A stretch of 36,107 bases of DNA from Alphaproteobacteria bacterium (GCA_018063145.1 JAGOQV010000005.1:1-36107), one strand, 5' to 3'. Shown: positions 3,127 through 28,357, counted from the stretch's first letter. Notes: a model not told the origin generated them from the letters alone. Translations and numbers: made by a program.

Positions 3127-3168
3127 CCTAATATATCGGGCCACTTTTAAGATTTGCACGGGGTGTGC

Positions 3169-4311: not shown

Positions 4312-5800
4312 CACGTTCGACAATTCGGATAATGCGCCGGATCTTGAGCCAGATGTGGATTTCGGCGAATTTGAGGATCAAAAAGAGTCTCAAAGTCTTG
4401 GAGACGCTTGGAAAAACAATCCACGTGTTAAACTTGCCATTATTGTTGCGGGGGTGATTGCTCTCGTTGGGGCGGTGGTTTTGTTTGGTAGCAAAGAAGA
4501 AAGAGCTCCTAGCTCTCTCATGAACACAGGGAGTGATATCAATCAAATCCCAGGCACAGAACAAGTCTCACCTGCGATGCAAGAGGCCATTGAAGAAAGC
4601 GATGCACAGAATCTTCAAGAGGCTGTAAAACAGGGAACGAGCGCGATGCCAACGCCGATTGAGCCGCCTAAACCTTTGCTAGATGTTCCTGCCGAGGAAA
4701 CAGGCAATGAGGATCCATTGGTTCGCTGGCGTCAACTTCAAGAGGAAAGACTTCGTGTTCAACGTGAACAGGAAAGAGCTCAAAAGCAACCGGCTGAACA
4801 ACCAGATCCAGCACGGGCGTCAATGCTGCAAGCTTTGATGCAGGCAATGTCTCAACAAATGCAAAGAATTCTTGAGACGCAGAAAGCTCAAAACCAGAAA
4901 TATATGAAAGTAACAGATCTTGCCAAGCTACAACAAGAAGGGCAGGAGGGCGCTCAGAATGCTGACTACTCTCCAAATCAGTCCGTGGCAAATATTGAAC
5001 TCAAGGAGCAGCTTAAGGTTATCATCCCTGCTGGAGATATTGCCTATGCCCAGTTGTTGATTGAGGCAAACTCGGACATCAAGGGTCCGATTGTGGCTTT
5101 GGTTGTCTCGGGACCGTTTAGTGGAGCAAAAGCCTTAGGGACCTTCACGCGAGAAGATGAGTATCTTGTCATGCAATTTACATCCATAACGGGTAAAGAA
5201 GGTCACAGCATTCCCATCACAGCTTTTGCTGTTGATCCCGCAACGACTTTGACAGGTCTGGCAACAGAGGTTGACCATCGGTACTGGACTAGGATTATCC
5301 TTCCGGCCGCCGCTAAATTTGTCGAAGGGGTTGGATCGGCGATTGCAGAAAAAGGAACAACAACAGTCACTGTATCTTCAGGTGGAGATTCAACGTCTAC
5401 TCAGGACAGCTCAAACATAGATGTTGAGCAAGAGCTTTATAAAGGGGTTGAAGAGGCCTCTAAAACCGTCGGAGAGATTTTGAAAGAAGACGGCAAAGAC
5501 GTTGAGCCTCTGGTTCGCGTTAAGGCTGGGACCCCGATAGGTCTTCTCTTCACCGTTCCGGTAACAGATAAAGCCCTAAAAGATTCAAGGTATGCTCCTG
5601 ATCCTAAAAAAGAAGAAGAGAAAGGGTTCTTCCCAGGTTTTGGGGGGAATAACCCGATGACTCTTCAAGGCTTACAACAAGGATTTCAAGGGCAGCAATT
5701 CCTTCAACAGGGGTACCCAGTTGGTTATCAGAACCAACAGGGCCAACCTGATCAAACCGGACAGACTCAACTTAATTTTCTCAATAATACCCAACGATAA
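4301..5800 (+). CDS. dotG: DotG/IcmE-like (TraO, VirB10-type) channel protein of type IVB secretion
   Basis: DotG spans both membranes and forms the central channel. The 499-residue protein has an acidic cytoplasmic head (1-42), one membrane segment at 43-63, a Pro/Gln-rich periplasmic linker with a Gln-rich helical stretch (about 140-205), and a C-terminal VirB10/TrbI-like beta domain (about 235-430). That domain starts with VIIPAGDIAYAQLLIEANSD and contains GPIVALVVSGPFSGAKALGTF. Legionella DotG is about twice as long because of a pentapeptide-like repeat region, which is absent here; the length resembles plasmid TraO. A Gln/Gly-rich tail of about 50 residues follows the domain. It overlaps dotH and is followed 65 bases later by dotF. 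Confidence 0.88.
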   Translation: MSNNTFDNSDNAPDLEPDVDFGEFEDQKESQSLGDAWKNNPRVKLAIIVAGVIALVGAVVLFGSKEERAPSSLMNTGSDINQIPGTEQVSPAMQEAIEESDAQNLQEAVKQGTSAMPTPIEPPKPLLDVPAEETGNEDPLVRWRQLQEERLRVQREQERAQKQPAEQPDPARASMLQALMQAMSQQMQRILETQKAQNQKYMKVTDLAKLQQEGQEGAQNADYSPNQSVANIELKEQLKVIIPAGDIAYAQLLIEANSDIKGPIVALVVSGPFSGAKALGTFTREDEYLVMQFTSITGKEGHSIPITAFAVDPATTLTGLATEVDHRYWTRIILPAAAKFVEGVGSAIAEKGTTTVTVSSGGDSTSTQDSSNIDVEQELYKGVEEASKTVGEILKEDGKDVEPLVRVKAGTPIGLLFTVPVTDKALKDSRYAPDPKKEEEKGFFPGFGGNNPMTLQGLQQGFQGQQFLQQGYPVGYQNQQGQPDQTGQTQLNFLNNTQR

Positions 5801-5865: not shown

Positions 5866-7203
5866 ATGGCTAACAATAAAGATCAGGACGATCTACAAGA
5901 TGGCAGTGTCGATCAAGGCGATGAAGAATTTTACGATGATCAGGATGATGCTGGCCACGAAGGTGATTTGGGCGAAGACTCTGGCGATGAAAATTGGGAA
6001 GAAGATGAATCTCCTGCCTCGTCGGCAAAAGGGGAGGGAAAGAAAAAATCCTCTCTCTCGACAATGGCCATCATTGCTGGCGGAGTTGTGGTTGGTCTCG
6101 TGATTTTGTACCTCCAGTTTGGAGGAAGTGGGGGCCAGACACCACCACCTGAAGGGATGGGCGGGGAACCGATAGCGGCGACAGACCCAGTTGGTATTGA
6201 ATCTCCCCCTCAACCTGCCGCACCACAACAAGCGGATGTTCAAGGACAAGAACCTGCTCCCGTTGCGCCATCTTCCCCAGACCAAGGATCTCCTAATTCT
6301 TTGGAAGCGCTTCGTGATACAAATGGAGCAGCAGGAATCGAAACGGTTGATCCAGCTGTTAAAGCGGCGTCCATGGAAAAAGATCCAAGGAAGCAAACAC
6401 CTCAAGGTGGGTTTATGAACGACCCCTCTTTGCTCCCTTCCGAAGTTCAAGGGGTTGCTCCACCAGTGGTTGATCGCCCTGTTGAGCCAACAATGACAGC
6501 TCCGAGTAAGAGACCTCCGGCTGTAGCTGAAGTTGAAAATCCAGTGACACCAGTGTCTGATTTTCCAACCGTGGATGCGATCAAGAAACCTGATGCAGGA
6601 GGCGTTGTTGAACAACCTGTTAAGCCGCTTGAAGAGCCGGTGGGAACCGAGGCCCCTGTCGTTGCAACTCCAACGCCCGCTCCTGTGCAATCAACAATGG
6701 TGGAAACTTCCTCTGAAGAAGTTAAAGTCCTTAAAACACAGCTTGAAACGGCTTTGAAACGCATTGAAGATCTCGAAAAGAAATCGGATCAACCTGTTGT
6801 CGCGGCACCAGCTACGCCTTCTGAAGATGTCAAAGCTTTGCGGGCTGCTTTGGAGAGCTTGCAAAATAAGGTAGAGACTTTGTCTGCTGAAAAAGAGGCC
6901 CTACAGAAAAAGGAACCAGAGATGGTTTCTGAATCTCCACGAACAGAAGAAAAAAGACCAACCAAGGTTTCTTCGCCTAGCAAGAAGGCCGAGCCTCGAG
7001 AAGTGCCCAAAACCAAAAAATCTGTCGTTTGGGATCTGAAGGGAGCTATGCCTGGGCAAGCGATGATTGCAGTTCACGGAGAGAGAGACCTGAAGATGAT
7101 TCGTATTGGCGATGAAGTTGCTGGAATCGGTCGGGTAACAGCAATTGAAAACTCTGGTAAGGGCTGGGTTGTCCAAGGAACAACTGGGCAAATTAGGCAG
7201 TAA
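5866..7203 (+). CDS. dotF: DotF/IcmG-like (TraP-type) bitopic component of type IVB secretion
   Basis: DotF is an inner-membrane protein of the Dot/Icm core associated with DotG and effector binding. This 445-residue protein has a very acidic cytoplasmic N-terminus (1-60), a membrane segment at about 66-84, a long Pro/Val/Glu-rich periplasmic linker, a predicted coiled coil at about 278-352, and a compact C-terminal domain (about 385-445). That domain has VVWDLKGAMPGQAMI, RIGDEVAGIGRV and GWVVQGTTGQI, the pattern seen in TraP-like proteins. ATG 5866 follows a strong AAGGAG site. The C-terminal domain and position between dotG and dotE give the assignment; the linker is low complexity and uninformative. 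Confidence 0.75.
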   Translation: MANNKDQDDLQDGSVDQGDEEFYDDQDDAGHEGDLGEDSGDENWEEDESPASSAKGEGKKKSSLSTMAIIAGGVVVGLVILYLQFGGSGGQTPPPEGMGGEPIAATDPVGIESPPQPAAPQQADVQGQEPAPVAPSSPDQGSPNSLEALRDTNGAAGIETVDPAVKAASMEKDPRKQTPQGGFMNDPSLLPSEVQGVAPPVVDRPVEPTMTAPSKRPPAVAEVENPVTPVSDFPTVDAIKKPDAGGVVEQPVKPLEEPVGTEAPVVATPTPAPVQSTMVETSSEEVKVLKTQLETALKRIEDLEKKSDQPVVAAPATPSEDVKALRAALESLQNKVETLSAEKEALQKKEPEMVSESPRTEEKRPTKVSSPSKKAEPREVPKTKKSVVWDLKGAMPGQAMIAVHGERDLKMIRIGDEVAGIGRVTAIENSGKGWVVQGTTGQIRQ

Positions 7204-7344: not shown

Positions 7345-7393
7345 CTGTTCTAATAAGAGATATGGAGAGCCGCTTAAGTGGCCGGGTGTGGAA

Positions 7394-8527
7394 ATGACAT
7401 ATAAAAATTGGAAATCTCTGAGATTTTCTCTCCTCCTGTTGGGAGGGACCGCTTTGGCGGTGTTTGCTGTTCCAGCAAAAGCTTATGCTGCGGGATTTTT
7501 CGCAGGTTTTCTGGGTGCGCTTGGCGGCGGTGGCGGCGGTGGTGGTGGCTTCGCTGCCTTTTTCGCAGGCTTTCTGGGTGCGCTTGGCGGCGGCGGCGGC
7601 GGTGGCTTTTTCGCAGGTTTTCTGGGTGCACTTGGAGGTGGTGGAGTTGGTACCACTAACCTTTGCGACGGGGCGGTGACCGACACAGTTGGGGCGGCGA
7701 TTTGTAACGTTGTCGCTAACAGTAGTGATCTTCCTGGTTTGATTACTGCCTTTGCTTACATGATGGGTTTGATGTTCGCTGTGGCGGCACTGTTCAAACT
7801 CAAGGACCACGTTTTGAACCCAAACCAGACACCCTTGTCTGACTCTGTTAAGCGTTTTGTGGCTGGTGGGGCCATGTTCTCCCTTCCTATTGTGACTGAG
7901 GCGGCCACGAATCTTTTAACCAACGGCACTTTGGTTTCTTTCGATCAGACTGGTGTTGCTGGCTCTACAGCAGGCGGGTATGGTCTTGATGCCATGCTTG
8001 TCGCGCTTATGGCGGATTTATTGGGCCCTGTTCAGCTTCTACTGCAAGGGTTTGGCTACTTAGCGGGTTTGCTCTTTATCGTCATCGGTATTTCTCGCCT
8101 CGTTAAAACGGCGCAAGAAGGTCCCCGTGGTCCCTCTGGGCTCGGGACGATCATGACTTTTGTCATTGCTGGGGTTTTATTTTCTCTCGACTCGATCATG
8201 GGGGCGTTCTCCGAGTCTATCTTCCAAGACACGACAGTCTATACCTTTGCAAGCTTGTCGGGAGGCGGAACAGGGGACGCAGTTATAGACGACCATATCT
8301 TGGCGGTGATCAGCTCTATTATTGGGTTTATGACCTTGATTGGCTGGATCAGTTTTATTCGTGGATTTTTCATCCTTCGTGCTGTGGCCGAAGGAGGTGG
8401 ACAAGCTTCGCTCATGGCGGCAGTGACCCATATTTTTGGGGGAGCTCTCGCCGTGAACCTAGGACCGCTTATGAACGCGGTACAAAGTACTTTTGGTCTA
8501 TCGTCTTTTGGTATAACATTCTCGTAA
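7394..8527 (+). CDS. dotE: DotE/IcmC-like (TraQ-type) membrane protein with Gly-rich tandem repeats and triplicated domain
   Basis: DotE/IcmC is a small inner-membrane part of the Dot/Icm machine; this version is about twice the usual size. After a signal-like segment (to about AYA-A, residue 34 counted from GTG 7388) come three copies of FFAGFLGALGGGG (37-49, 58-70, 74-86). A DotE/DotP-type unit follows (114-177: LPGLITAFAYMMG, KLKDHVLNPNQTPL, then a second membrane helix). Two further related two-helix units lie at about 209-280 and 302-370. The first unit is clearly similar to the next gene, dotP. GTG 7388 and ATG 7394 are both possible; ATG 7394 overlaps the stop of an 11-codon upstream ORF as ATGA and is preferred. 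Confidence 0.75.
   Translation: MTYKNWKSLRFSLLLLGGTALAVFAVPAKAYAAGFFAGFLGALGGGGGGGGGFAAFFAGFLGALGGGGGGGFFAGFLGALGGGGVGTTNLCDGAVTDTVGAAICNVVANSSDLPGLITAFAYMMGLMFAVAALFKLKDHVLNPNQTPLSDSVKRFVAGGAMFSLPIVTEAATNLLTNGTLVSFDQTGVAGSTAGGYGLDAMLVALMADLLGPVQLLLQGFGYLAGLLFIVIGISRLVKTAQEGPRGPSGLGTIMTFVIAGVLFSLDSIMGAFSESIFQDTTVYTFASLSGGGTGDAVIDDHILAVISSIIGFMTLIGWISFIRGFFILRAVAEGGGQASLMAAVTHIFGGALAVNLGPLMNAVQSTFGLSSFGITFS
7496..7645 (+). repeat. Three tandem glycine-rich coding repeats in dotE
   Basis: Three copies of a 39-base unit coding FFAGFLGALGGGG lie at 7496-7534, 7559-7597 and 7607-7645, separated by Gly/Phe/Ala-rich spacers. The DNA copies are nearly identical, including synonymous positions, which points to recent expansion by slippage or unequal recombination. 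Confidence 0.9.
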
Positions 8528-8549
8528 CAAAGCATTGAGGAGGAAAATC

Positions 8550-8942
8550 ATGCTGAAACTTATTAATAACAAACTAGCTCGTATGAGTGCTGTAAGTGGT
8601 GCTGCTTTCACGATGGGTCTTTTGTCTTCGACAGACGCTCACGCGAACAGTTTTAATACCATTTCTAGAAACATCAACACTGGTATTCAAGAACTTCCAG
8701 GTCTTTTGACGGCTATTTCCTATATGATGGGGATGGTTTTCTCGGTTCTCGGGATCTTGAAAATCAAAGACCACGTTGAAAACCCAAGCCAGACTCCTTT
8801 GAAAGATGGGGCGATCCGTTTGGCAGTTGGGGGCGGTCTCTTCACCATTCCAATTATCACCGAAGCAATGACCAATTTGCTGGGTGCAGGTAAGGCTGCC
8901 GAATCTGCAATGCTTAACAAAATGCAGTTCAACGTTCAGTAA
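8550..8942 (+). CDS. dotP: DotP/IcmD-like (TraR-type) membrane protein of type IVB secretion
   Basis: This 130-residue protein is the usual size for IcmD/DotP. It has a signal-like N-terminus (ending near DAHA-N), then the paired-helix unit ELPGLLTAISYMMGMVFS, KIKDHVENPSQTPLKDG and GGGLFTIPIITEAMTNLLG. That unit is closely similar to residues 114-177 of the preceding DotE. The start is ATG 8550, preceded by a strong GAGGAGG at 8537-8543; the in-frame TTG at 8535 overlaps that site and is rejected. The order dotE-dotP-dotN-dotO supports the call. It is predicted to sit in the inner membrane. Confidence 0.82.
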   Translation: MLKLINNKLARMSAVSGAAFTMGLLSSTDAHANSFNTISRNINTGIQELPGLLTAISYMMGMVFSVLGILKIKDHVENPSQTPLKDGAIRLAVGGGLFTIPIITEAMTNLLGAGKAAESAMLNKMQFNVQ

Positions 8943-8955
8943 CAAGAAGGGCGTG

Positions 8956-9666
8956 ATGCCTGTATTACCTCTACATCTGGGGATTGCCCGTCCAAATCCG
9001 GGCAGTCCCCAACCTCTTTCCGGCAAGTCTCGTGTGGCATTGCCGCAAGTTTTGACGCCAGAAATCAAGAAGGCGGTTCTCGACCGTGATGGGAATGCCT
9101 GCCAGTGCTGCGGGTTTCAGTCTGCAAGATACCAAGAAGTCCATTTTATTGACCAGAATCGCCAAAACCTAAGAATGGATAATTTGGCGACTGTTTGTGT
9201 TTTTTGCCACCAATGTTTCAACCTTGATCTTGCGGCGACCATGAGGTCGGGTGTTTTGATCTGGCTTCCTGAGATTTCTCAAGTTGATTTGCACCATATC
9301 GCTAGGGCTGTATACGTTGCAAGGATATCCCAAGGGGCGATGGCTGAATCGGCTCGTGTGGCTCTTGATGCGTTTATGGGACGTCGTGAAGAAGCGCGTC
9401 GCCGAATTTTCACCGATGACCCGTTTGTTTTGGCAACTGTCATGCGTGATTTTCTGACAGCACGGCACTATGCAGATCGTGTATCACGGTTGGAGGGAAT
9501 TCGTCTTTTTCCTCTTGATCGTCGGCTTATTCGCGAAGCGGATCTTGAATTTAACCAGTTTCCACAGATTTTGGCCTATTGGCGATCAAAAGAAGGTCCA
9601 TTTGGAAACTTTGCCCCATCGCAGTGGACTTCACTTTATAAAAAAACATTGCGCCAAGCCGCTTAA
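8956..9666 (+). CDS. dotN: DotN/IcmJ-like (TraT-type) zinc-binding coupling-complex protein
   Basis: In Legionella, DotN/IcmJ is part of the DotL-DotM coupling complex that recruits substrates, and it has an HNH-endonuclease-like fold with a structural zinc. The motif here is ACQCCGFQSARYQEVHFID (C49, C51, C52) followed by CVFCHQCFNLD (C81, C84, C87), with NLRMDNLATVCVFC matching the HNH-like zinc site. Length is 236 residues, slightly longer than Legionella IcmJ. ATG 8956 follows AGAAGGGCG and is preferred over in-frame starts back to 8884, which overlap the end of dotP. Gene order between dotP and dotO fits. Its presence implies that DotL/DotM homologues are encoded elsewhere. Confidence 0.85.
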   Translation: MPVLPLHLGIARPNPGSPQPLSGKSRVALPQVLTPEIKKAVLDRDGNACQCCGFQSARYQEVHFIDQNRQNLRMDNLATVCVFCHQCFNLDLAATMRSGVLIWLPEISQVDLHHIARAVYVARISQGAMAESARVALDAFMGRREEARRRIFTDDPFVLATVMRDFLTARHYADRVSRLEGIRLFPLDRRLIREADLEFNQFPQILAYWRSKEGPFGNFAPSQWTSLYKKTLRQAA

Positions 9667-9757
9667 AAAAAAGAAAAAACCCCCTTTGCCTGTTTTCTAA
9701 TTCGCTGTTTCCGGTATAGTATTGGGAAATTCTATTCCAACCGCTTTACCGGATTCC

Positions 9758-12757
9758 ATGGGCTTCATCGAAAAAATCTTAGCTCCCTTTCAAACAGCTC
9801 TCCGCCACTCGGTTGAGAGCTTTATCCGTATTGAAACCGCCGACAGTGATACCGTCTTAGCGGCAGAGGATGGATCTTTGGTTTCTTACCTCAGGGTTGA
9901 TGGGTCACGTCAGGTTATCGGGGAAGAGGAGTATAAATTTCTAGTCGAGGCTTCAACGGTTAAGATTGGCTCTAAATTTGACCGTCCGGGGCATGCTTTG
10001 CAAGTTTACTTTGCACGTGATCCGGGCCGGATTCGTCCACACCTAGAAAAATTGCTCAAAGGGTCACGGATCACAGCTCAAAACACCGGACTTGAAGTGA
10101 ATGATGTGATGGAAGAGCGCATTCGCAACCTCAGTACCATTTTGTGTTACGAGGAGTGTTACTTTGTTCTGTGGACCCGTCCATCTTCAATGACCAAGAG
10201 CGAAACAGAGCGTTCTGCCAAAGAAAAACAGGATCAGGGGAAAAAATGGGTCAACGCGCCCTATGGACAGAATCCTCTGGCGGGGCTCGAACAACTTCGG
10301 ACGCGCCACAAAAGTTTTGTGATTGCTGTACAAACTGGACTTGATGAGCTCGGAATTCGCGGTGAGATTATGAGCTCGCACGAGGCAGTTCTCGCGATTA
10401 AGAATAATATGTTCCCCAATCGGGCCAATGAGGAATGGCGTGCGTGTCTTCCTGGTGATCCGATTGCACCGCGTGCGCCGATGGATACTGCCGATTTGTC
10501 GGATATTATCTGGCCATCCCTCAGAAGCCAATTATCTTTGGGGGATGCCAAGATGATTGACGGTCCAGTTGTTCGTATTGGTGACCAATTATGGGCTGGA
10601 GCGGATATGGTCTTAGGCCCGCAGGAACCAACACCTTTTCCGATGTTGCTGAACCGCCTCTACGATGCAAAAGTTCCTTTCCGAATATCTTTTATGATTG
10701 AAGGAGGCGGAGCGCACGCAACGGCTTTTCGGGCCAATATTGCAACCTTGATGAGTGTGACAAACGCCCTCAACAAACAGATTAAATATTCTCTGGAAGG
10801 GCTGCAGGTCATGGCCCGTAGTGAACCAGTGGTTAAACTGCGCGTATCGTTTGCAACATGGGCCCCTAAAAACGAATACAACCTCATTCGTGATCGACTC
10901 TCTGTGTTGATGCAGGCCGTGGAAAGCTGGGGTTACGCAGGGGTGAGTGATGTTTCGGGAGATCCGCTGGATTGCGTGATGTCTTCGGCGATGGGGATTC
11001 ATTGTGCGGGGACTGCGCCTCTGGCCGTTGCTCCTATGAAAGAGGTTATGAAGCTTTTGCCGTGGCAACGACCTTCAAGCCCCTTTAATGCTGGGGCTAT
11101 TTTGCTAAGGACTCCCGATGGGAAGGTTTGGCCATATCAAACAGGAACCAACTTAACAACAACATGGTTTGACCTGATTTTTGCCCAACCCGGGGCAGGG
11201 AAATCCGTTCTTATGAACGCTCTGAACTTTGGAACAATCTTATCCCCGGGGCTTAGCAAACTCCCTTTTATTGCGGTTATTGACATTGGTCCGTCTTCTT
11301 CAGGGCTTATTTCGATGATTAAAGAAGCCCTTCCTGAGGACCGGCAACATGAAGCCGCAGGCTATCGTTTGCAGATGTCGCGTCAGTTTGCCATCAATCC
11401 TTTTGATACCCAGTTAGGATGCCGTTATCCACTTATGGATGAGCGGAGCTACTTGGTTGAACTTATCATTCTTTTGTGTACGCCCCCCGGGTTTGAGAAA
11501 CCTTATGATGGGATGTCTCAATTGGCAGGGATGGTTGTTGACGAAATGTATCGTTGGCGGGATGACCGGATGGCGAATGCGGAACCGAGGCCCTATCTTC
11601 CCCGCCTTGATCCGGTCATTGATGAAGCCATTCAGAAACATAATATTTATCTTCCAGCCGATCCCTATTGGTGGGATGTTGTCGATCGCCTGTTCGAGTT
11701 AGGGGAATATCACGAAGCCGCCTTGGCTCAAAGGCACGCGGTCCCGACACTAAGCGATTCGATTACAGCCTCTCGTCGTCCGCAAATCAGGACGTTGTTG
11801 GAAGAGACTTCGGTTGGCTTTAGTGCAGAGTCGGTTATCAATGCTTTTGAACGGATGATTACCTCGGCAGTTCGCGAGTATCCCATTTTGTCGTCCGTGA
11901 CCCAGTTTGATATTTCAACCACACGCATATGCTCACTGGATTTGATGGACGTTGCGCCTCAAGGGGATGATACAGCAGACCGCCAAACCTCGATCATGTA
12001 TATGTTGGCACGGTATGCTTTGGTGCGGGCATGGTGGGTTGGAGTTGATTCTTTGCGGAGCATTCCAGAGAAGTATCGTTCCTATCACGAACTTCGTTTG
12101 CAAGATTTGGCAGAAACTCCCAAACGGCTTTGCTACGACGAATTTCACCGGACCAGTAGTTCGGCCTCGGTACGGGGTCAGATTGTCCGTGATGTTCGCG
12201 AAGGCCGGAAACGTGGTGTTCAAATTGTTTTGGCGTCCCAATTGTTGGGAGACTTTGACAAGGACATGGTTGATCTTGCCACGGGGGTCTGGGTTTTGGG
12301 GACCGCGGTTTCTGATAAAGCTGTTGACGAAATCGTTGAGAGGTTTGGCCTGTCTCCAACAGCGCGGAGTGTTATCCGCTACCGATTGACAGGCCCACGG
12401 GCGGGTGGGGCTCCGGCCTTGTTCATTTTGGGAACGAACGAAGGTCGGTACGAGCAACACTTGATTAACACGCTGGGTCCGATTGAGCTTTGGGCTTTTG
12501 CGACAACCGCAGAGGATGTGGTGATTCGGTCTCGCCTTTATTCTAAATTGGGTGCGGGCCGTGCCCGTCAGATTCTGGCAGCCGCTTTTCCGGGGGGAAG
12601 TTCCCGCAGTGAGCTCAAAAGGAGAATTATGATTCGCGCTGATTCAGGTGAAGCCCGCAGCGCGGCGATGAGTATCGTTGTCGATGAGCTGGTTGACGAG
12701 CTGATTACAGCGAGTGAGAAAAAAGCAGCCTTATTTGCTAGTGAGACAAAGGGCTAG
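9758..12757 (+). CDS. dotO: DotO/IcmB-like (TraU, VirB4-type) ATPase of type IVB secretion
   Basis: DotO is the VirB4-like hexameric ATPase at the cytoplasmic base of the Dot/Icm system. The protein is about 1000 residues, as in Legionella. The N-terminal region reads SFIRIETADSDTVLAAEDGSLVS in segments characteristic of IcmB. The Walker A motif AQPGAGKSVLMN lies near residue 476 and the Walker B-like LCYDEFHRTSS near residue 790, followed by EGRKRGVQIVLASQLLGDF, the arginine-finger/sensor segment of the family. ATG 9758 aligns best with known IcmB starts (MGFIEKIL); a TTG at 9722 would add 12 residues. Neither has a good ribosome site, so the start is uncertain. It follows dotN by 91 bases. 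Confidence 0.92.
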   Translation: MGFIEKILAPFQTALRHSVESFIRIETADSDTVLAAEDGSLVSYLRVDGSRQVIGEEEYKFLVEASTVKIGSKFDRPGHALQVYFARDPGRIRPHLEKLLKGSRITAQNTGLEVNDVMEERIRNLSTILCYEECYFVLWTRPSSMTKSETERSAKEKQDQGKKWVNAPYGQNPLAGLEQLRTRHKSFVIAVQTGLDELGIRGEIMSSHEAVLAIKNNMFPNRANEEWRACLPGDPIAPRAPMDTADLSDIIWPSLRSQLSLGDAKMIDGPVVRIGDQLWAGADMVLGPQEPTPFPMLLNRLYDAKVPFRISFMIEGGGAHATAFRANIATLMSVTNALNKQIKYSLEGLQVMARSEPVVKLRVSFATWAPKNEYNLIRDRLSVLMQAVESWGYAGVSDVSGDPLDCVMSSAMGIHCAGTAPLAVAPMKEVMKLLPWQRPSSPFNAGAILLRTPDGKVWPYQTGTNLTTTWFDLIFAQPGAGKSVLMNALNFGTILSPGLSKLPFIAVIDIGPSSSGLISMIKEALPEDRQHEAAGYRLQMSRQFAINPFDTQLGCRYPLMDERSYLVELIILLCTPPGFEKPYDGMSQLAGMVVDEMYRWRDDRMANAEPRPYLPRLDPVIDEAIQKHNIYLPADPYWWDVVDRLFELGEYHEAALAQRHAVPTLSDSITASRRPQIRTLLEETSVGFSAESVINAFERMITSAVREYPILSSVTQFDISTTRICSLDLMDVAPQGDDTADRQTSIMYMLARYALVRAWWVGVDSLRSIPEKYRSYHELRLQDLAETPKRLCYDEFHRTSSSASVRGQIVRDVREGRKRGVQIVLASQLLGDFDKDMVDLATGVWVLGTAVSDKAVDEIVERFGLSPTARSVIRYRLTGPRAGGAPALFILGTNEGRYEQHLINTLGPIELWAFATTAEDVVIRSRLYSKLGAGRARQILAAAFPGGSSRSELKRRIMIRADSGEARSAAMSIVVDELVDELITASEKKAALFASETKG

Positions 12758-12760
12758 GCT

Positions 12761-13273
12761 ATGGCCAAAAAATCTCCGCCTCCCAGCGATGAAAATCCAC
12801 CTTCTAAGAAGAAGATGTCAAGGAAGAAAAAGATTCTCTTAGGGGTCGGAGGATTTATTGTTCTTCTGGTTCTTATAGGTCTGGTTCCTTATATGGGGAC
12901 GATTAACTACGGGATTTGCAAAGTTTTCGTGGAACGAATGCAGCCATATCCCCAGTCCATTAAATATACCAAAGTGGAAGAACAGGGGACGGAAGAAACC
13001 GGCTTCTTTGTGACAATGTACTACAAGCGAACCGATGCATTTGGTGATGAATCGATGAACTCAATTGTTTGTAAAATTAAAAAGTCCGAGGAAGGGAAGC
13101 TGTATTTGGATGCCGTTGACATGAACGGAAAGAACCGGAAATACCCGCAAGAATCTCCCGACTATATTAAACGATTTAACGTGGGAATTGATGCCATCAT
13201 CCAAAACCCTCCGGACTTGGTTCTGCCTTATGTTCCATCCGAAGAAATCAAAGACTATAAGGATATCCCTTAG
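12761..13273 (+). CDS. Small bitopic membrane protein of the T4BSS locus, unknown function
   Basis: The 170-residue product has a very basic, Pro/Lys-rich cytoplasmic head (1-25), one membrane segment at about 25-45 (LLGVGGFIVLLVLIGLVPYM) and a 125-residue periplasmic domain with no motif I recognise (contains YGICKVFVERMQPYPQS and CKIKKSEEGKLYLDAVDMNG). Two Cys (C53 and C103) could form a disulfide. It starts three bases after the dotO stop and so is probably co-translated with it. In plasmid Tra regions other genes (traV and beyond) occupy this place, but I see no sequence reason to equate them. A T4BSS-specific accessory role is inferred only from position. Confidence 0.75.
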   Translation: MAKKSPPPSDENPPSKKKMSRKKKILLGVGGFIVLLVLIGLVPYMGTINYGICKVFVERMQPYPQSIKYTKVEEQGTEETGFFVTMYYKRTDAFGDESMNSIVCKIKKSEEGKLYLDAVDMNGKNRKYPQESPDYIKRFNVGIDAIIQNPPDLVLPYVPSEEIKDYKDIP

Positions 13274-13297: not shown

Positions 13298-14077
13298 CTA
13301 GTTAGGAGAGGCAATCCACTGCTCAATCCCTACCCCGTTGGGGCTTTCGAGTTTTGGCACTCTAACAATTGTCAGCGAGACGAGCAGGTGGTCCGAACGA
13401 GTGGCCGATCCAGCCTGATAAGTTATAACCATCGGAACTTGAATTTGCCATTGGTAACGCCCGTTAACGAGCCCCTCTTCAACGAGGACCGGAGCACTGG
13501 TTGGGGAGGCTGAAACCACTTGTTTGTTAGCCTCAACCATTTCTATAATTCTTGATTTCTCAAGGGCTGTGGTGAAGCTTGCCCAACCAACGCGAGTAAA
13601 ATTGCGTGAAGCTTCCTGCAGACGGCGTTTGTAATCGTTGAACCCGAAGGTCAAAACTTCTGTAGCGGCTTGGGCACTCCATGACATAAGGGCTGGAATA
13701 CTGAGGTTAGGTTCATTAAGAGAAACCATGGGGACCAGACGCCCGTCTTCCGTGGTCGCAAAGTACCTGTTTTCGGGCTGGTGGACTTCAATAACAAAAA
13801 ACATCGCGGCAATGAGCCCGAGAATAACAATGGCCTCAAGAATGGCAATTCGTAGGAGACTCCGGTATCCATCTCTATAAAATTCATTACGAATAACCAC
13901 AGAACCAATTCCGCGCAGAGCTTTGATTTCCTCGGCATCCGTTACTTGGTTGGGAATTTTGACAGCAGAATTCAGAGCTTCTTGGGCGGAGGCTATTGGC
14001 TTTCTAACCGCCCCCGCTGCTCCAGAGGGGCGGGCCGGACGAGGATTCGGACGTGAGGAATTTTGTGGGTCTGACAT
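13298..14077 (-). CDS. dotI: DotI/IcmL-like (TraM, VirB8-type) inner-membrane component of type IVB secretion
   Basis: DotI is a bitopic inner-membrane protein whose periplasmic domain has a VirB8-like (NTF2-type) fold. The 259-residue protein has a Pro-rich cytoplasmic head, the family signature VVIRNEFYRDGYRSLLR (about 60-76), a membrane helix at about 74-97, and a periplasmic domain with FNDYKRRLQEASRNFT, VGWASFTTALE and WQIQVPMVITYQ. ATG 14077 is chosen over TTG 14104 because it follows an AGAG site and gives the usual length. It is convergent with the preceding dotO cluster, unlike Legionella and R64, where dotI lies before dotH on the same strand. It faces the paralog cluster across a shared promoter region. 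Confidence 0.88.
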   Translation of the reverse strand: MSDPQNSSRPNPRPARPSGAAGAVRKPIASAQEALNSAVKIPNQVTDAEEIKALRGIGSVVIRNEFYRDGYRSLLRIAILEAIVILGLIAAMFFVIEVHQPENRYFATTEDGRLVPMVSLNEPNLSIPALMSWSAQAATEVLTFGFNDYKRRLQEASRNFTRVGWASFTTALEKSRIIEMVEANKQVVSASPTSAPVLVEEGLVNGRYQWQIQVPMVITYQAGSATRSDHLLVSLTIVRVPKLESPNGVGIEQWIASPN

Positions 14078-14302
14078 TATCTCTGGTCTAGTCTTGAAGT
14101 ACAAAAAAGGGAAGATACCCCTCCCCTAGCCTATACGACCAAGGTACATGGACATTTGTTAATATAAGGTTAGCAAACTTATAGAGGGGATAAAAGACTT
14201 AAAAACCTTTGAAGGTAAAATTTGGCTTTTATGTTGGTAAATCTTTTGGTTTTCTCTCGGCTGTGCTACTATTTATAGTAAGTCGGCTGACAAAATGGTT
14301 TT
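14078..14302. promoter_or_regulatory. Divergent promoter region between dotI and the paralog cluster
   Basis: This AT-rich spacer holds no gene. It contains a perfect 14-base palindrome TACTATTTATAGTA at 14267-14280 that overlaps a possible -10 (TACTAT) for the paralog operon, with TTGGTT at 14246-14251 as a weak -35 at 15-base spacing. The same palindrome could be an operator. Promoter hexamers are poor matches. Confidence 0.35.
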
Positions 14303-14316: not shown

Positions 14317-15654
14317 GTGATTATGCGGGGGTTTGAGGGTGTCTGGGGTCGGATCTTGCTTTCGAAGAAGGTGAGGCTTGGGCTTTTGCTCCTGATGGGT
14401 GGAGCGTCACTGCTGCCAACTCCTGTTCGGGCGGCGGGGGCCGTTTACGATATTCCCCCTTATAACAATCCGATTTGCAATTGTTGCGTTCTTCCTGGAG
14501 AAGTGATGCGCGAGATGCTCACGGGAACTGTTCTGTGGACAGGGCAGCCGGATCTTCATCACTGGTATATTGAAACGCTTTACCAAAAGAAAATTGAGCC
14601 AGCTTTCATGAGAATGGCAGATCAGATGGTTAAAAACGTGACCAATCAGGCCAGAGCTATCGGAACTTTCTATGATGCTCAGAACCAACTGACGGCGCAG
14701 CGTTCTTTGCAAAGGACCAATGCTGAATCGCAAAGCCACTACTCAACCAGCGAAGCCTTGTGTAAATACGCCAGTCTTTCTACGAGCCTTGCTGCGTCTG
14801 AAGCGAAGCAAAATGCGGTTCGTCTTGGAATTTTGGAACGTTCGCAAAATCGCCAATTGATGAGCTCGAACATGAACCCGGCCAGTAGTGCAGAAGCAGG
14901 GCGGACCCTTGGTCAATCTGCGGATAAGGCAGGGCGGATGAGTCAGTTTTTAGCCAAGTTTTGCGATCCGAATGATAGTGATGCGGCGTTTGCTGGAATG
15001 TGTGCATCTAGCCAAGATACTCAAATCAACAGAGATATTGATCTAACACGCACAATTGATGCTCCTTTGACGCTGGATGTTAACTTTACCAGTGGGGGAG
15101 GGGCTCCAACAGTTGACGAAGAAAATGTAATGGCCCTTGCCAATAACCTTTATGCCCATGATCTCGCGTTGAATGTCGGAAACTCGGACTTCAAGTCTAT
15201 GGCCTCGGCGAGTAATGCGAATGAGGGGATCAAGGATTTGCAGGATTTCCGCTCTGCCGTTGCCAAGCGGAGTGTAGCTGAAAATAGTTTTGCAGCGATT
15301 GCAGCTATGAAGGCGGCTGGAACAGGGGGGTCAACACCCTATCTAAAGTCAGTTTTGGCAGAGCTGGGAATTTCCGCTGCGGATGCGGATAAGTTGATTG
15401 GAACCAATCCGAGTTATTACGCTCAAATGGATATTCTTGGACGGAAACTTTATCAAACACCCGCCTTCTATGCGAACCTGATGGATTCTCCGGACAACGT
15501 GGCTCGCCAAAGTGCGGCTCTCAAGTCCATCTCTCTCATGCAGCAGAGAGATATTTATGAAAGTATGCAGCGATCTGAGATGTTGCTCTCTACTTTGCTT
15601 GAAATGTATATTGTGCAAGAACAAGATAAGATGACCAATGAGGGGGTTAAGTAG
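14317..15654 (+). CDS. Secreted T4BSS-linked family protein, paralog 1 of 4
   Basis: I do not recognise this family. The 445-residue protein starts at GTG 14317 and has a signal peptide (helix about 21-33, cleavage near VRA-A). A Cys cluster (NPICNCC, residues 52-57) follows. The shared domain (about 92-432) begins MRMADQMVKNVTNQARAIG and YDAQNQL, then has LCKYASLSTSLAASEAK (C149), KFCDPND with a second Cys 13 residues later (C216, C229), NRDIDLTRTID, VMALANNLYAH, KRSVAENSF, ELGISAADADKLIG, NPSYYAQMDIL and LMDSPDNVARQ, ending QQRDIYESMQRSEMLLSTLLEM. It looks mostly helical and periplasmic or extracellular. It is the first gene of a four-member tandem array beginning just past dotI, with a five-base gap to the next start. 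Confidence 0.9.
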   Translation: MIMRGFEGVWGRILLSKKVRLGLLLLMGGASLLPTPVRAAGAVYDIPPYNNPICNCCVLPGEVMREMLTGTVLWTGQPDLHHWYIETLYQKKIEPAFMRMADQMVKNVTNQARAIGTFYDAQNQLTAQRSLQRTNAESQSHYSTSEALCKYASLSTSLAASEAKQNAVRLGILERSQNRQLMSSNMNPASSAEAGRTLGQSADKAGRMSQFLAKFCDPNDSDAAFAGMCASSQDTQINRDIDLTRTIDAPLTLDVNFTSGGGAPTVDEENVMALANNLYAHDLALNVGNSDFKSMASASNANEGIKDLQDFRSAVAKRSVAENSFAAIAAMKAAGTGGSTPYLKSVLAELGISAADADKLIGTNPSYYAQMDILGRKLYQTPAFYANLMDSPDNVARQSAALKSISLMQQRDIYESMQRSEMLLSTLLEMYIVQEQDKMTNEGVK

Positions 15655-15658
15655 AGCC

Positions 15659-16942
15659 ATGAAGCAGCTATCCCTCTCTCACCTAATCCGCACGTTTTTT
15701 CTACCCTTGTGGGGATGTGTCCTCCTCTCTTTTTTAGTATTTTTTCCTAGTCCGGCTAAAGCCGGGTGCTCTTGTTGTAAGTGCGTATGCCCTTTTATTT
15801 GCTGCGATTCTGGCTCGACATTCAGCTATATATTTCAGGCTTTTGTTGACTATCGTACGGATTTTATCATGGACACGTTCTATACTGATACAGCGGAACC
15901 TTCCTATATGAAGTTCTCAGATCAGTTGATTAAAGATTGGTCCGCACAGGCCGCCACAATTGGTAAGTTAATGGATGCCTCAAACACGATGCAGGCAATG
16001 CGCGATATACAAGTGCAGAATGCCCAATCAACGCGGAAATATATGACTTCTGAACAAGTCTGTCGCTTCGGATCTATGACGACCAGTCTTGCTGTGACGG
16101 ATGTCAAGGTGCGGGCTAACCAGATGGCCTTGAGTGAAATTGCTTTGGCACGGCATCTTGGGTCTGTTTATTCGGTGGCAGCCGGCGGACGGGGGCAAGA
16201 CAACGAGAACCGTTTGGCTCAGTTCGGCGAGCAGTTCTGTGACAAGAATGACAATGATAGCGGTCTCGATCAGCTTTGCAATGTAGCGGCCCCCCCTCCA
16301 GATCGTCGTCATAACCGCGACATTGATTTTGCCAGAACCATTGATGACACACTGACCATCAACAATCTTGATTTCGGGAATGCCACGAAAACAGAATCCG
16401 AAGGGAACGTGATTGCTCTTGGGCATTACTTGTACGGGCATAACCAGTTTGTAAAACGGATTAGCCCCGCCGAAATTGGGGAAGGCCAAGGGGCGCAGGC
16501 TCTCCTACAAGATGTCCGCTCTGTGGTTGCGGCGCGTTCGATGGCGCAAAACAGTTATAATGTTATTGCAGCGATGAAGGCGGGGAGCGAATCCGGATCA
16601 GCGGTAAAACCTATGATGGATCAATACCTCTCCAAGCTCGGAATTTCCGCAGCAGATGCAAAAAAACTGATTGGTGACAGCCCGAGTTATTTTGCTCAGA
16701 TGTCTGTTTTGACCAAGAAAATCTACCAATCACCAGATTTCTATGCGGGGTTGATGGATAGTCCTGAAAATGTTTCCCGCAGTACGGCTTCGATGGAAAG
16801 CTTCGAATTGATGCAAGACCGTGATGTTTTTGCGTCAACATCGCGGTCTGAGGTTCTTTTAGCCGTGTTACTAGAGCTGGAAGCTAGGAAGTTTGACGAG
16901 TCTGTCAAGGATCGTGGAGCCGGAAATGACAGCAAACCTTGA
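15659..16942 (+). CDS. Secreted T4BSS-linked family protein, paralog 2 of 4 (Cys-rich head)
   Basis: This 427-residue paralog of the preceding gene has a signal peptide ending near PAKAG, directly followed by seven Cys within 13 residues (C37-C49, pattern C-S-CC-K-C-V-C-PFI-CC). The shared domain shows MKFSDQLIKDW, IGKLMDASNTM, VCRFGSMTTSLAV, QFCDKNDNDSGLDQLC, NRDIDFARTID, RSMAQNSYNVIAAMK, LGISAADAKKLIG, SPSYFAQMSVLTKKIYQ, LMDSPENVSR and a C-terminal SRSEVLLAVLLELE. ATG 15659 is preferred to 15638, which would overlap paralog 1, because it gives a clean signal peptide. The Cys cluster could bind metal or form disulfides; it does not fit a lipobox (Lys at -3). Its end is 13 bases before the third paralog. 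Confidence 0.9.
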   Translation: MKQLSLSHLIRTFFLPLWGCVLLSFLVFFPSPAKAGCSCCKCVCPFICCDSGSTFSYIFQAFVDYRTDFIMDTFYTDTAEPSYMKFSDQLIKDWSAQAATIGKLMDASNTMQAMRDIQVQNAQSTRKYMTSEQVCRFGSMTTSLAVTDVKVRANQMALSEIALARHLGSVYSVAAGGRGQDNENRLAQFGEQFCDKNDNDSGLDQLCNVAAPPPDRRHNRDIDFARTIDDTLTINNLDFGNATKTESEGNVIALGHYLYGHNQFVKRISPAEIGEGQGAQALLQDVRSVVAARSMAQNSYNVIAAMKAGSESGSAVKPMMDQYLSKLGISAADAKKLIGDSPSYFAQMSVLTKKIYQSPDFYAGLMDSPENVSRSTASMESFELMQDRDVFASTSRSEVLLAVLLELEARKFDESVKDRGAGNDSKP

Positions 16943-16955
16943 GGAGTGTAAGATT

Positions 16956-18182
16956 ATGAATCATAAAAAACGGTCAGCTTTTTCCTCTCTACTTCTCGTG
17001 TGTTTTGGCGCGGCTGTTTTGGTTCCCTTTCCTGCGAAAGAAGCCTCGGCTTGTGGAGGATGCACGCCATGTTCAGTATGGTCAGATCAGGTGACTACCG
17101 AAATGGATCGTCACAAGGACTGGATGGTTGATGAATGGTGGGAAGGGTACGTTGAGCCCGGGTTAATGAAGCTTTCGGACCAAACCATCAAAGCCATGTC
17201 GTGGGAATCCTCAACGATTGGTAGATTCATGGACGCTCAAAACCAGTTGGGGAGTATGCAAGCTCTTCAGGAAATGAATGCCAAATCGACCAATTCCTAC
17301 GCGACAAGCACGTCTTTGTGCCAATTTGGTTCTTTAACCAAAAGCTTGGCTGCTTCGGAAGCAAAAGCAAAAGCAAACCAAATTGTACTTGCTGAGCGGT
17401 CGCAGAACCGTCAGTTGGGCCACAATAATATGGCTTCGCAAACGGGATCTCAAGGAGACCGTATGGCTCGTTTGGCTCAGTTTCAAGCCAAATTCTGTGA
17501 TAAGTCAGACTTTAATGGGGGAATGAAGGACTTATGCTCTGGTGCTCCGCCGGATACAATGCTCAACCTTGATATTGATTTTGCGCGGGCGGTGGATGCA
17601 AAGAAGACCCTCAATGTTGACTTTACCAATGCTGCAAAAACGAACGATGAAGAAGCGGTGATCGCTCTTGCGAGCAATCTTTACGCGCATGAAACATTTG
17701 ATCGGATGGGAGCGGGCGGACTTAAGGACTCAAACGCCAAAGATAACCGAACCACTTACCTCGACCAGCGTTCTATTGTGGCCAAACGTAGCGTAGCGGA
17801 AAACTCTTTTAACGCATGGGTTGGAAAAAAAGCCGAAGGGGAAGCTGGATCAAAAACTTATATCGAAGCCGTTCTCAAAAGTCTTGGGGTTCCAGCGGCG
17901 GACCTTCCCAAGTACCTTGGAGACAAGCCGAGCTATGATGCACAGATGGAAGTTCTCACTAAAAAAGTTTTCCAAGATCCTGCCTATTACGCCAACTTAA
18001 TGGATAATCCAGCCAACGTTCAACGCCAATATGCCTCGTTACAGGCATTTGGTTTGATGCAGCAGCGGGATATTTTTGAAACGATTCTGCGGTCCGAGAT
18101 GCTGCTTTCTTTGATTGTTGAGATGGAAGTTTCAAAATTCCAAGATGATGTGCAAAACCGTCTGAACTCAGGAAAGAAATAG
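16956..18182 (+). CDS. Secreted T4BSS-linked family protein, paralog 3 of 4
   Basis: This 408-residue paralog has a signal peptide (cleavage near ASA-C) followed by ACGGCTPCSVW, a short Cys cluster. The shared domain shows MKLSDQTIKAMS, IGRFMDAQNQL, LCQFGSLTKSLAASEAKAKANQ, KFCDKSDFNGGMKDLC, LDIDFARAVD, VIALASNLYAHE, KRSVAENSF, LGVPAADLPKYLG, KPSYDAQMEVLTKKVFQ, LMDNPANVQRQ and LRSEMLLSLIVEME. GAGGAG at 16941-16946 lies 9 bases before ATG 16956 and rules out starts back to 16893, which would overlap paralog 2. It follows paralog 2 by 13 bases and precedes paralog 4 by 18, so all four are one operon. Confidence 0.9.
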   Translation: MNHKKRSAFSSLLLVCFGAAVLVPFPAKEASACGGCTPCSVWSDQVTTEMDRHKDWMVDEWWEGYVEPGLMKLSDQTIKAMSWESSTIGRFMDAQNQLGSMQALQEMNAKSTNSYATSTSLCQFGSLTKSLAASEAKAKANQIVLAERSQNRQLGHNNMASQTGSQGDRMARLAQFQAKFCDKSDFNGGMKDLCSGAPPDTMLNLDIDFARAVDAKKTLNVDFTNAAKTNDEEAVIALASNLYAHETFDRMGAGGLKDSNAKDNRTTYLDQRSIVAKRSVAENSFNAWVGKKAEGEAGSKTYIEAVLKSLGVPAADLPKYLGDKPSYDAQMEVLTKKVFQDPAYYANLMDNPANVQRQYASLQAFGLMQQRDIFETILRSEMLLSLIVEMEVSKFQDDVQNRLNSGKK

Positions 18183-18200
18183 GGAAGACAGGGGTTAATT

Positions 18201-20069
18201 ATGGCGGTGCAGAATTGTTTTTCTCCTCGAAATGTTCTGGCGTTAGCCGGATTGGTGGCTTTATGCTTGGGAGTTTTGTTTCCGCTTGATGCTTTCTCCA
18301 GTCCAGAAAGACCGAAAGGGGCGGCTTTGAATTTGACGGGAGCGGGGGCTGCGCCTTCGGCCCAAATTTCTCTTTCGACAGGAAAAACTCAGACACTAAC
18401 AACTCAAGCAGATAAAAATGGGAACTTTTCTTTCACGGGTCTTGGTTATGCCCCTGGTTACCCTTTAACATTTAAGCTTCAGATTTCGCCGCAGAAAATA
18501 CGTGGGAGAAGCTTTTCTGGTAACAAATTATCTTTCAAAATTGACCCTATAGGGGCCTATGCTGAGGTGCAAGGTTCAGTGACTAAGGCCGCCAGCGTTG
18601 TCGTCAACTTAGGCGGAGAGCAATCTGGTTCGGCGGTGGCCAATGAAAAAGGTTACTTTGAAGTCATGGCAACATCCAATAAGAAGCTATCTAAAGGAGA
18701 TGGTTTCTTGATTGCAAGTATTGTAAACGTTCAAGAAATGTGTTGCCCACGGACAATAGTTCCGGAGTCACCCCTTATGATTTCTATTTCAAGTGTCCCG
18801 TTACCAGAGGCTGCTCCTGCGGCTAAGACTGAAAAGATCAAAAAGTCTCGGAAATCTCAAACGCCGTTGCCTCCTATCTTCATTCCTGAGCAGTCCAAAC
18901 CCCCTGCCAAGAAAGAAGGGGCACCAGATACGAATAAGCCTTATGTTCCTTATATTATCCAAGGGTCAGTAACGCATGAAACCACCATAGTTTCTGAGCC
19001 TTTGCGGATGGCCGTTTCCTTCCCGGGGGCTATGTATGACGCGACATGGACGGGTGGAACCATGAAAATGTCGGATCAGATTATCAAGAATGTCACGAAC
19101 CACGCCAAACAACTTGGCTCAATGATGGATGCCCAAAATACATTGAAAGCCTTAAGGGCAATTCAAAAGGCGAATTTGGAATCCACTCGGAAATATCAGC
19201 CAAGCACGGGTGTTTGTGTTTTTGGTAGTGCGAGCACATCTTTGGCCGCCTCGGAAGCTCGTGCTATCGCCAACAAAATGGCTTTCAACGAAATTCTAAT
19301 TGATACAGAAAAACAAGTTAAAAACACGGCTTTTTCTAAAACGGAAAGCGAGGGTCGAGCGGCGGCTCTTGCTGATTTTCAAAGAAAGTATTGTCGCCGG
19401 ATTGATAACAACAACGGGTTGGAATCTTTTTGTAAAGGGCTTGGGGCAAGTGATACGCGGTTTAATCGAGATGTTGATTATGCCCGTGTGTTCGATGCCC
19501 CTTTGACGGTTAAAACCAATTTTACCGACGCTGCAAAGACACCTGTTGAGGAAGACGTTATCGCTCTGTTCCGCAATTTATCGGTTGCGCAGGTTCTTCC
19601 GGCGGTCTCGAAAACTGTGTTCCAAACCGATACGAAATCAGCAGCAGCTCAAGATTTACGGGCCGCGATTGCAGCGCATAGTGTTGCCCAGAATACCTTT
19701 GCCGATATTGTTGGACAGAAATCTGAAGGAAGCGGGGCCTCTTCCGCAAGTATCAAAGCGGTGATCCAACATCTGGGGCTTTCAGCGGCAGATGCCGAGG
19801 CTCATGTTGGAAGCAAACCCAGCTATTACGCGCAGATGGAAATTCTGACCAAAAAAATGTACCAAGACCCTGCGTTTATTGCCAATCTTTATGAATCGCC
19901 AGAAAACGTAACGCGGCAGCGAGCCGCGATAAAGGCAACCAGTTTGCAACAAGGTTCTGATCTTTACCAAAGTCTGAAACGGCGGGAAATGCTCTTGTCT
20001 GCGTTATTGGAGCTTAAACTGAGGCAGCGGGCGGCACAGGAGAACCAAAGCGGATCAACAGCAGACTAG
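18201..20069 (+). CDS. Secreted T4BSS-linked family protein, paralog 4 of 4, with N-terminal beta domains
   Basis: At 622 residues this is the largest of the four. A signal peptide (about 1-32) is followed by two beta-sandwich-like segments (about 41-118 and 120-200). The first contains QADKNGNFSFTGLGYAPG and the second ANEKGYFEVMATSN, both typical of CarboxypepD_reg-like or Ig-like folds. A CCPR pair (181-182) and a Pro/Lys-rich linker (about 200-250) follow. The shared domain (about 280-605) has MKMSDQIIKNVTNHAKQLG, MDAQNTL, VCVFGSASTSLAASEA, KYCRRIDNNNGLESFC, NRDVDYARVFD, LGLSAADAEAHVG, KPSYYAQMEILTKKMYQ, LYESPENVTRQ and KRREMLLSALLELKL. It ends the array; a function in surface contact or as a T4BSS tip component is inferred only. 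Confidence 0.9.
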   Translation: MAVQNCFSPRNVLALAGLVALCLGVLFPLDAFSSPERPKGAALNLTGAGAAPSAQISLSTGKTQTLTTQADKNGNFSFTGLGYAPGYPLTFKLQISPQKIRGRSFSGNKLSFKIDPIGAYAEVQGSVTKAASVVVNLGGEQSGSAVANEKGYFEVMATSNKKLSKGDGFLIASIVNVQEMCCPRTIVPESPLMISISSVPLPEAAPAAKTEKIKKSRKSQTPLPPIFIPEQSKPPAKKEGAPDTNKPYVPYIIQGSVTHETTIVSEPLRMAVSFPGAMYDATWTGGTMKMSDQIIKNVTNHAKQLGSMMDAQNTLKALRAIQKANLESTRKYQPSTGVCVFGSASTSLAASEARAIANKMAFNEILIDTEKQVKNTAFSKTESEGRAAALADFQRKYCRRIDNNNGLESFCKGLGASDTRFNRDVDYARVFDAPLTVKTNFTDAAKTPVEEDVIALFRNLSVAQVLPAVSKTVFQTDTKSAAAQDLRAAIAAHSVAQNTFADIVGQKSEGSGASSASIKAVIQHLGLSAADAEAHVGSKPSYYAQMEILTKKMYQDPAFIANLYESPENVTRQRAAIKATSLQQGSDLYQSLKRREMLLSALLELKLRQRAAQENQSGSTAD

Positions 20070-27679: not shown

Positions 27680-28357
27680 ATGTCTCATCAACGCGGGAAT
27701 ATTCTTTTCTATGTTTTAATCGGCATTGTTCTGGTCGGCCTTCTAACTGTTGCCCTGCGCAATACAGGGAACATGAAAGACAATATAGACTCGGAGAATT
27801 TAGTTATCCGCGCCGGAGAAGTACAAAGGCACGCCGGCGAAGTCGAAAAAGCCGTTGGAATCCTCATTGGCAACCGTGTCAGTGAAAGCGATATTCGCTT
27901 CGCCCACCCCGATGCTCCAGCTGAATACGGAACCATCACCACCAACCCAACATTTCAGATTTTTTCAGAAACTGGTGGAATGGCAACTTACAGGCTTCCA
28001 CCAAGTGGGGTAAATGACGGGAGTAAATGGGAGTTCTATGGCACCAGCGATATTCCCGAAGTCGGGTCTGACCAATCAGAGTTGATTGCTGTTCTGCCTA
28101 ACGTTACGCAAGAATTTTGCAAAGTAATAAACGCTCAATTAGGCTTCACCGCTGGAACGCAACCTCTTGACGACTCAAGTGGAGCTTCACCTGATTGTGT
28201 CCAAGGAGCTGCCGTCAACCGCTTTACCGGAACTTTTGATACAACGCCCAATATGCTCGACAAAACGACCTTCAGTGTCTTGCCCTCTTACCAAGGCTGT
28301 GTGACATGCGCGAGCGATAACTCCTATCACTACTTCCATGTACTACTATCCCGATAG
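27680..28357 (+). CDS. Pilin-like single-pass secreted protein, paralog A
   Basis: The 225-residue protein begins MSHQRGNILFYVLIGIVLVG, one N-terminal hydrophobic helix after a short basic head, as in type IV pilin-like proteins, but the usual Glu5 of prepilins is missing. The extracytoplasmic part has DIRFAHPDAPAEYG, YRLPPSGVNDGSKWEFYG and ELIAVLPNVTQEFCKVIN. It is homologous to the protein at 31618-32295, sharing FAHP, GVNDGS-W-F-G and the LP-x-x-x-x-x-x-C block. Cys residues in the C-terminal half may pair. Such pairs occur in alphaproteobacterial genomes as uncharacterised proteins; I cannot assign a function. It has a GGAAAGGGAC site before ATG 27680. Confidence 0.8.
   Translation: MSHQRGNILFYVLIGIVLVGLLTVALRNTGNMKDNIDSENLVIRAGEVQRHAGEVEKAVGILIGNRVSESDIRFAHPDAPAEYGTITTNPTFQIFSETGGMATYRLPPSGVNDGSKWEFYGTSDIPEVGSDQSELIAVLPNVTQEFCKVINAQLGFTAGTQPLDDSSGASPDCVQGAAVNRFTGTFDTTPNMLDKTTFSVLPSYQGCVTCASDNSYHYFHVLLSR

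Follow-up and report, generated by a model that had tools for sequence, protein, structure and literature searches.

In type IV machines, contact with the target cell is believed to be made by a part formed of IcmX and VirB5. Published work describes DotA and IcmX as assembling into a pentameric protochannel at the centre of the machine, which lengthens upon activation (PMC12981334, PMC12857230), and PDB entry 9NGY is the DotA-IcmX protochannel of Legionella. A published table equates IcmX, TraW of plasmid R64 and VirB5 (PMC12624023). Several copies of VirB5- or VirB6-position genes are known from Bartonella, whose Trw system has tandem trwJ (VirB5) with trwI and trwH (PMC2883598), and from Rickettsia, with five VirB6 copies, rvhB6a-e (PMC2653234). 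The gene traW occurs at 3442 places in 3420 plasmid records, suggesting about one per plasmid.

We analysed a stretch of 36,107 nucleotides (the window; GCA_018063145.1, JAGOQV010000005.1:1-36107) from an alphaproteobacterial metagenome-assembled genome. Known type IVB secretion systems (T4BSS) have one IcmX; the window carries an array of four genes that very probably belong to the IcmX family.

Four paralogous genes beside dotI

Four adjacent ORFs of the plus strand span positions 14317-20069, are co-oriented, and have one domain of about 340 residues in common, present in all four products (Table 1). All-against-all BLASTP gave pairwise identities of 37-44% over 327-441 aa (E 1e-65 to 1e-111), far above the shuffled control, in which the best match among 200 shuffled copies reached E 0.11. 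The motifs listed by an earlier, sequence-only reading of the window do occur, in somewhat varied form: (S/A)DQx(I/V)K, C-x-(F/Y)-(G/A)-S, N(R/L)D(I/V)D, A(E/Q)N(S/T)(F/Y), G(I/V/L)(S/P)AAD, PSY(Y/F/D)AQM and (S/R)E(M/V)LL(S/A). The C-x(12-14)-C pair is kept in 98 of the 99 relatives that make up the family alignment. That reading was thus right about four tandem paralogues sharing one domain, and also about the neighbouring dotI, which is genuine.

All four proteins start with a hydrophobic stretch that resembles a signal peptide when judged by eye. In paralogues 1-3 a Cys-rich stretch directly follows the apparent signal peptide. Paralogue 4 has no Cys-rich N-terminus and carries some 200 additional residues ahead of the common domain. 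The listed ORF of paralogue 3 runs from a TTG at 16893 to 18182 (429 aa); its start is likely the ATG at 16956, judging by the GAGGAG ribosome site. Elsewhere in the window, opposite strands encode two small proteins that are related to each other and have a hydrophobic, pilin-like N-terminus (RGNILFYVLIGI, KGNVLFLILIAV), at 27680-28357 and 31618-32304; a Pfam scan of the first gave no match.

Table 1. Features of the window, with the type IVB loci of Micavibrio aeruginosavorus in the last row; assignments of array genes to the IcmX/TraW type are probable.
Feature	Coordinates	Strand	Basis and remarks
DotH/IcmK	3154..4311	+	PF12293, E 1.2e-75
DotG/IcmE, TrbI/VirB10-like C-terminus	4301..5800	+	PF03743 above cut-off; NF033900 E 3e-54, below cut-off
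DotF/IcmG-like	5866..7203	+	NF038218 E 8e-11, below cut-off
Two small-membrane-protein genes, TraQ/TraR (DotE/DotP-like) position	7388..8942	+	Weak DUF6750 match; R64 position
IcmJ/DotN-like	8884..9666	+	NF038221 E 1.9e-24, below cut-off
DotO/IcmB (TraU-position) ATPase	9722..12757	+	Weak TraC match; size and order of R64 traU
170-aa membrane-anchored protein, TraV position	12761..13273	+	Adjoins DotO; also beside DotO in locus L193
DotI/IcmL	13298..14104	-	PF11393 E 1.3e-65; NF038072 above cut-off; divergent to array
Paralogue 1, IcmX/TraW-type	14317..15654	+	445 aa; fourth counted from array 3' end; ORF, paralogy, alignment and family profile, position orthologues within genus
Cys-rich mature N-terminus, paralogue 1	about 14434-14490		NPICNCC
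Paralogue 2, IcmX/TraW-type	15638..16942	+	434 aa; ORF, paralogy, family profile, position orthologues
Cys-rich mature N-terminus, paralogue 2	about 15764-15810		GCSCCKCVCPFICC
Paralogue 3, IcmX/TraW-type	16956..18182	+	ORF, paralogy, AlphaFold model of mature protein
Cys-rich mature N-terminus, paralogue 3	about 17049-17075		CGGCTPC
IcmX fold, all-helical, paralogue 3	17070..18176	+	AlphaFold model and PDB match
Three-conserved-cysteine stretch, paralogue 3	17319..17537	+	C91, C150, C163 of mature chain, spacing 59 and 13
Paralogue 4, IcmX/TraW-type	18201..20069	+	622 aa; final gene of array, N-terminal extension
Two tandem Ig-like beta domains, paralogue 4	18318..18806	+	Model residues 8-170, pLDDT about 90 mostly
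IcmX fold, paralogue 4	19035..20063	+	Model matched to 9ngy_AP1
T4BSS loci of G039, taken as M. aeruginosavorus ARL-13	C1:2432226 and C1:201470-209358

The common domain has the fold of IcmX

The AlphaFold model of the mature paralogue 3, built on the 99-sequence alignment, has a pLDDT of 90.9 and consists of a 77-residue helix, a hairpin, small helices and a closing 56-residue helix. Compared by Foldseek with 350,542 PDB chains, it has a sole significant match, 9ngy_AP1 (E 7.9e-4, prob 1.00), the runner-up standing at E 0.66. With VIA-align, the same chain gives Z 13.7 over 272 aligned residues and the next entry Z 6.1. The TraC/TrwJ fold, that of the type IVA VirB5, is absent among the structural matches listed for this model. 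9NGY contains two proteins; a DotA query matches 9ngy_FP1, which has 1048 residues and bears the name DotA, and the matched chain AP1, with 417 modelled residues, is therefore IcmX. Helical folds can produce chance matches with high Z-scores, and a second model therefore matters. The model of paralogue 4, made from a different alignment, again has 9ngy_AP1 on top (Z 11.8, rmsd 4.0 Å, 230 residues).

Sequence searches, cysteines and gene order

Sequence search alone does not recognise the array family as IcmX/TraW. Scans of the four proteins and their 99 relatives against Pfam, NCBIfam and PHROGs gave chance-level matches only, TraW excepted, and neither a PDB sequence search with the family alignment nor a plasmid search returned a match. 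None of the 99 members matches the curated Pfam family of VirB5 at E 0.1 or better. The NCBIfam model of TraW (NF033888, conj_TraW) matches two of the 99, tied for the most of any family; on the arrays of two single-contig genomes it gives E 1.5e-6 and 1.5e-5 over model positions 11-155, below its cut-off. As the top score in 104 genomes is 27.5 bits and the cut-off of 100 bits is unreached, we did not file the array family as conj_TraW proper. The alignment of the family with eight TraW sequences by hhalign is not significant and equals that of column shuffles. These profile links are weak, and the identity of the family hence rests on fold, cysteines and position.

Three cysteines are conserved in 99/99, 99/99 and 98/99 members, with spacings of 59 (79 of 99) and 13 (82 of 99). 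Plasmid TraW has three cysteines spaced 57-59 and 14 in seven of eight sequences, in surroundings similar to those of the array family. The gene order of R64 is a DotI-family gene (traM position), traN-O-P-Q-R-S-T-U-V-W-X, and then the DotA/TraY gene. That of the window is DotH, DotG, DotF, two small membrane proteins, DotN, DotO (conserved in the cluster across loci), the 170-aa protein, an inverted DotI and the array. In many relatives DotI, DotH, DotG, DotF and the following genes run in one direction and the array runs from DotI in the opposite one. The divergent DotI/IcmX pair recurs in other loci, and one genome (G502) has a single copy there. We found no further IcmX candidate in the window besides the array. 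Fold, cysteine signature and gene position taken together make it highly probable that the four genes belong to the IcmX/TraW family, in the VirB5 position.

Copy number and distribution

The search placed 104 genomes in the same family as the window, which we take to be the Micavibrionaceae, and 142 in the same order. A contig search with the family alignment as query identified 74 loci and one with a single protein as query none; the relatives matched are Micavibrio and alphaproteobacterial metagenome-assembled genomes. The 75 same-family genomes that are at least 90% complete and have the array carry two (3 genomes), three (17), four (22), five (23) or six (10) IcmX-type copies. Two sister families (f174, f178) mostly have 4-6 copies and two others (f177, f179) 0-2. 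A class-wide draw of 385 genomes gave one marginal match outside the family (G187, E 0.009, with an internal stop). Two to six tandem, mostly position-orthologous copies thus occur in nearly all Micavibrionaceae and also in sister families, and the array is not present in the other sampled alphaproteobacteria. It was never seen away from a T4BSS. In each of the 61 arrays that are complete within the fetched loci, all genes have one orientation; of 205 neighbouring array ORFs, 194 lie at most 100 bases apart or overlap.

Three near-complete genomes of the family (G056, G095, G098) miss the array and dotH and have weak DotI matches, and they keep DotA and fliF. Loss of the system is doubtful there, dotH and flgK being missing together with the array. 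In locus L062 flgK follows the array, and a search for it in the three genomes found no match; because this flanking gene too is gone and fliF and DotA are still there, we consider a missing contig more probable than a loss, and the same segment is probably missing from the three assemblies. Two further genomes (G058 and G500, loci L192 and L191) have clusters with DotH, DotG and DotF in which the IcmX profile is marginal (E 0.006 and 4e-5); these clusters may have just one IcmX, of divergent sequence.

The copies are distinct by position

A tree of 302 domains shows 41 changes of array position, and none of 200 label shuffles gave fewer than 166. The window's four genes are each closest to the same-position gene in close relatives. 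The tree includes a pure clade of 59 last-position genes (support 99), outside which paralogue 4 of the window falls. The N-terminus with clustered cysteines occurs in none of 72 last-position genes, compared with 134 of 231 genes at other positions. From the tree, the copies are old, anciently diverged and distinct by position. Same-position orthologues are on average 47-50% identical; the values are 46% for DotG, 55% for DotH, 74% for DotI and 32% for DotF. Fast diversification of the array is not seen, because this identity is similar to that of DotG and DotH and above that of DotF.

The model of paralogue 4 shows, in order, two beta-sandwich domains (mature residues 8-170), a low-confidence linker and the IcmX fold. 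The beta part matches Bap, SiiE, ice-adhesin repeats and Ig designs in Foldseek, and there are weak matches to NCBIfam Ca_tandemer and Pfam Big_6/CarboxypepD_reg. The length of the N-terminal extension varies in the family, and a Pfam scan of ten family proteins with long N-terminal extensions gave no match. The Ig-like part of paralogue 4 may bind a target.

DotA is also multiplied

The TraY/DotA profile is above its cut-off in 100 of the 104 family genomes. DotA is encoded by three, sometimes four, tandem genes in 40 fetched loci (e.g., G000:C60, locus L170), in a cluster separate from that of dotH, dotI and icmX. In the window's own genome a single short contig carries three DotA genes, of which one is truncated where the contig stops. 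A strict co-multiplication of DotA and IcmX is rejected by several sister-family genomes with five or six IcmX and one or two DotA. Because DotA is often single and IcmX multiple in the sister families, the two were not multiplied in step.

The genome paper on M. aeruginosavorus ARL-13 reported finding no sign of a type IV secretion system (PMC3189940). In the genome that we take to be that of ARL-13, we found two IcmX-type genes, DotI (E 1.7e-74) and DotA in three tandem copies. Our literature search, which mostly covered papers outside subscription, found none linking Micavibrio with a T4BSS or DotA. These findings suggest that a Dot/Icm-type machine is conserved among the relatives of an obligate bacterial predator.

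Possible roles of the IcmX-type copies

We propose that the products of the four genes are IcmX/TraW-type proteins in the periplasm, belonging to a type IVB secretion system encoded on the chromosome. If they are like the homologous protein of the protochannel, each paralogue would be exported and would take its place in a five-fold stalk atop DotA, inside the DotG/DotH cage, and activation would make it a part of the outer conduit or the tip. In this lineage, several position-conserved copies that diverged long ago would have taken over from a single IcmX. These are presumably not redundant, and each could have its own location within the stalk or tip, perhaps in mixed rings, with the Ig-bearing last copy as the outermost, target-facing subunit. 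We give an even chance to the copies being dedicated subunits of one machine, its DotA-IcmX stalk. A strictly mixed ring is not required, and a fixed ring of five parts is disfavoured, because copies vary from two to six and M. aeruginosavorus has two. The more specific proposal of one mixed or layered stalk and tip, with several IcmX and up to three DotA, used on bacterial prey, is tentative. If it is true, a Dot/Icm-type injector exists in a lineage of predators for which the first genome paper described no type IV secretion system.

The copies might instead be interchangeable tips, each machine using a single IcmX type according to the prey, target or growth phase, as has been proposed for the variant TrwJ and TrwL copies of Bartonella. 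Copy number varies from two to six between genera, the N-terminal extensions are of unequal length (the longest ORFs reach about 1000 aa), and the Bartonella Trw system is a precedent (PMC2883598). However, the copies are old positional orthologues (41 changes, at least 166 in shuffles), they are no more divergent than the structural parts (47-50% identity versus 46% for DotG, 55% for DotH and 32% for DotF), and their compact co-oriented arrays suggest co-expression. Because of this positional orthology, compactness and ordinary divergence, we favour dedicated subunits, and regard interchangeable tips as possible but doubtful.

A set of secreted substrates or free adhesins, exported by the T4BSS and acting outside the machine, is quite improbable, even if processed Legionella IcmX was reported in culture supernatant (PMC12981334) and paralogue 4 has Ig-like domains of adhesin type: the models show the very fold of the IcmX stalk subunit, and the array occupies the position of IcmX in a window where no other candidate was found. 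Slightly less probable still is a new T4BSS component family having the helical arrangement alone in common with IcmX, as would fit the absence of a profile-profile link to TraW and of PDB, Pfam or NCBIfam sequence matches above cut-off, since the same IcmX chain comes first for two independent models and cysteine spacing and gene position are common with TraW/IcmX.

The sequence-only reading had not recognised the domain among Dot/Icm or Tra components and had proposed a new component family; the single-chain models, which match the IcmX chain first, together with cysteine signature and position, point instead to the known IcmX/TraW family. No match to an unrelated family was found. Its suggestion of a lineage-specific tip, adhesin or substrate set survives in part: the proteins have the look of exported ones, are linked to the T4BSS and form a lineage-specific subfamily, most plausibly of the stalk or tip, and the novelty of the family is not supported. 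Several fixed, non-interchangeable versions of IcmX, one of them adhesin-like, together with a tripled DotA would amount to a natural dissection of the stalk and tip.

Comparison with known systems

Legionella IcmX (9NGY) resembles the array proteins in fold (Z 13.7 and 11.8), in size, in export, which is putative for the array proteins, and in its T4BSS context, but identity over the structural alignment is about 10-14%. The Legionella protochannel is described as a pentamer of one IcmX, whereas the array lineage encodes two to six paralogues, with Ig-like domains on the last. TraW of IncI plasmids (R64; NF033888) has three cysteines at near-equal spacing, a place after traU-traV and weak profile matches in common with the array; the array differs in staying below the NCBIfam cut-off and in its N-termini, and R64 has one traW.

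The Trw system of Bartonella is alike in the tandem multiplication of the VirB5-position gene and in the multiplication of VirB6. It is a type IVA system, which also has trwL (VirB2) in variant copies, and its copies vary between species and diversify faster than its other parts, whereas the array lineage has stable positional orthologues and its DotA genes in a separate cluster. Rickettsia rvhB6a-e likewise represent a stalk protein that one lineage maintains in several copies, conserved but highly divergent from one another; they belong to a type IVA system and concern the VirB6 position only, with no VirB5, whereas the array lineage multiplies both DotA and IcmX in a type IVB system. Tandem copies of VirB5 and VirB6 are already known from type IVA systems, and several IcmX copies per type IVB genome are unusual.
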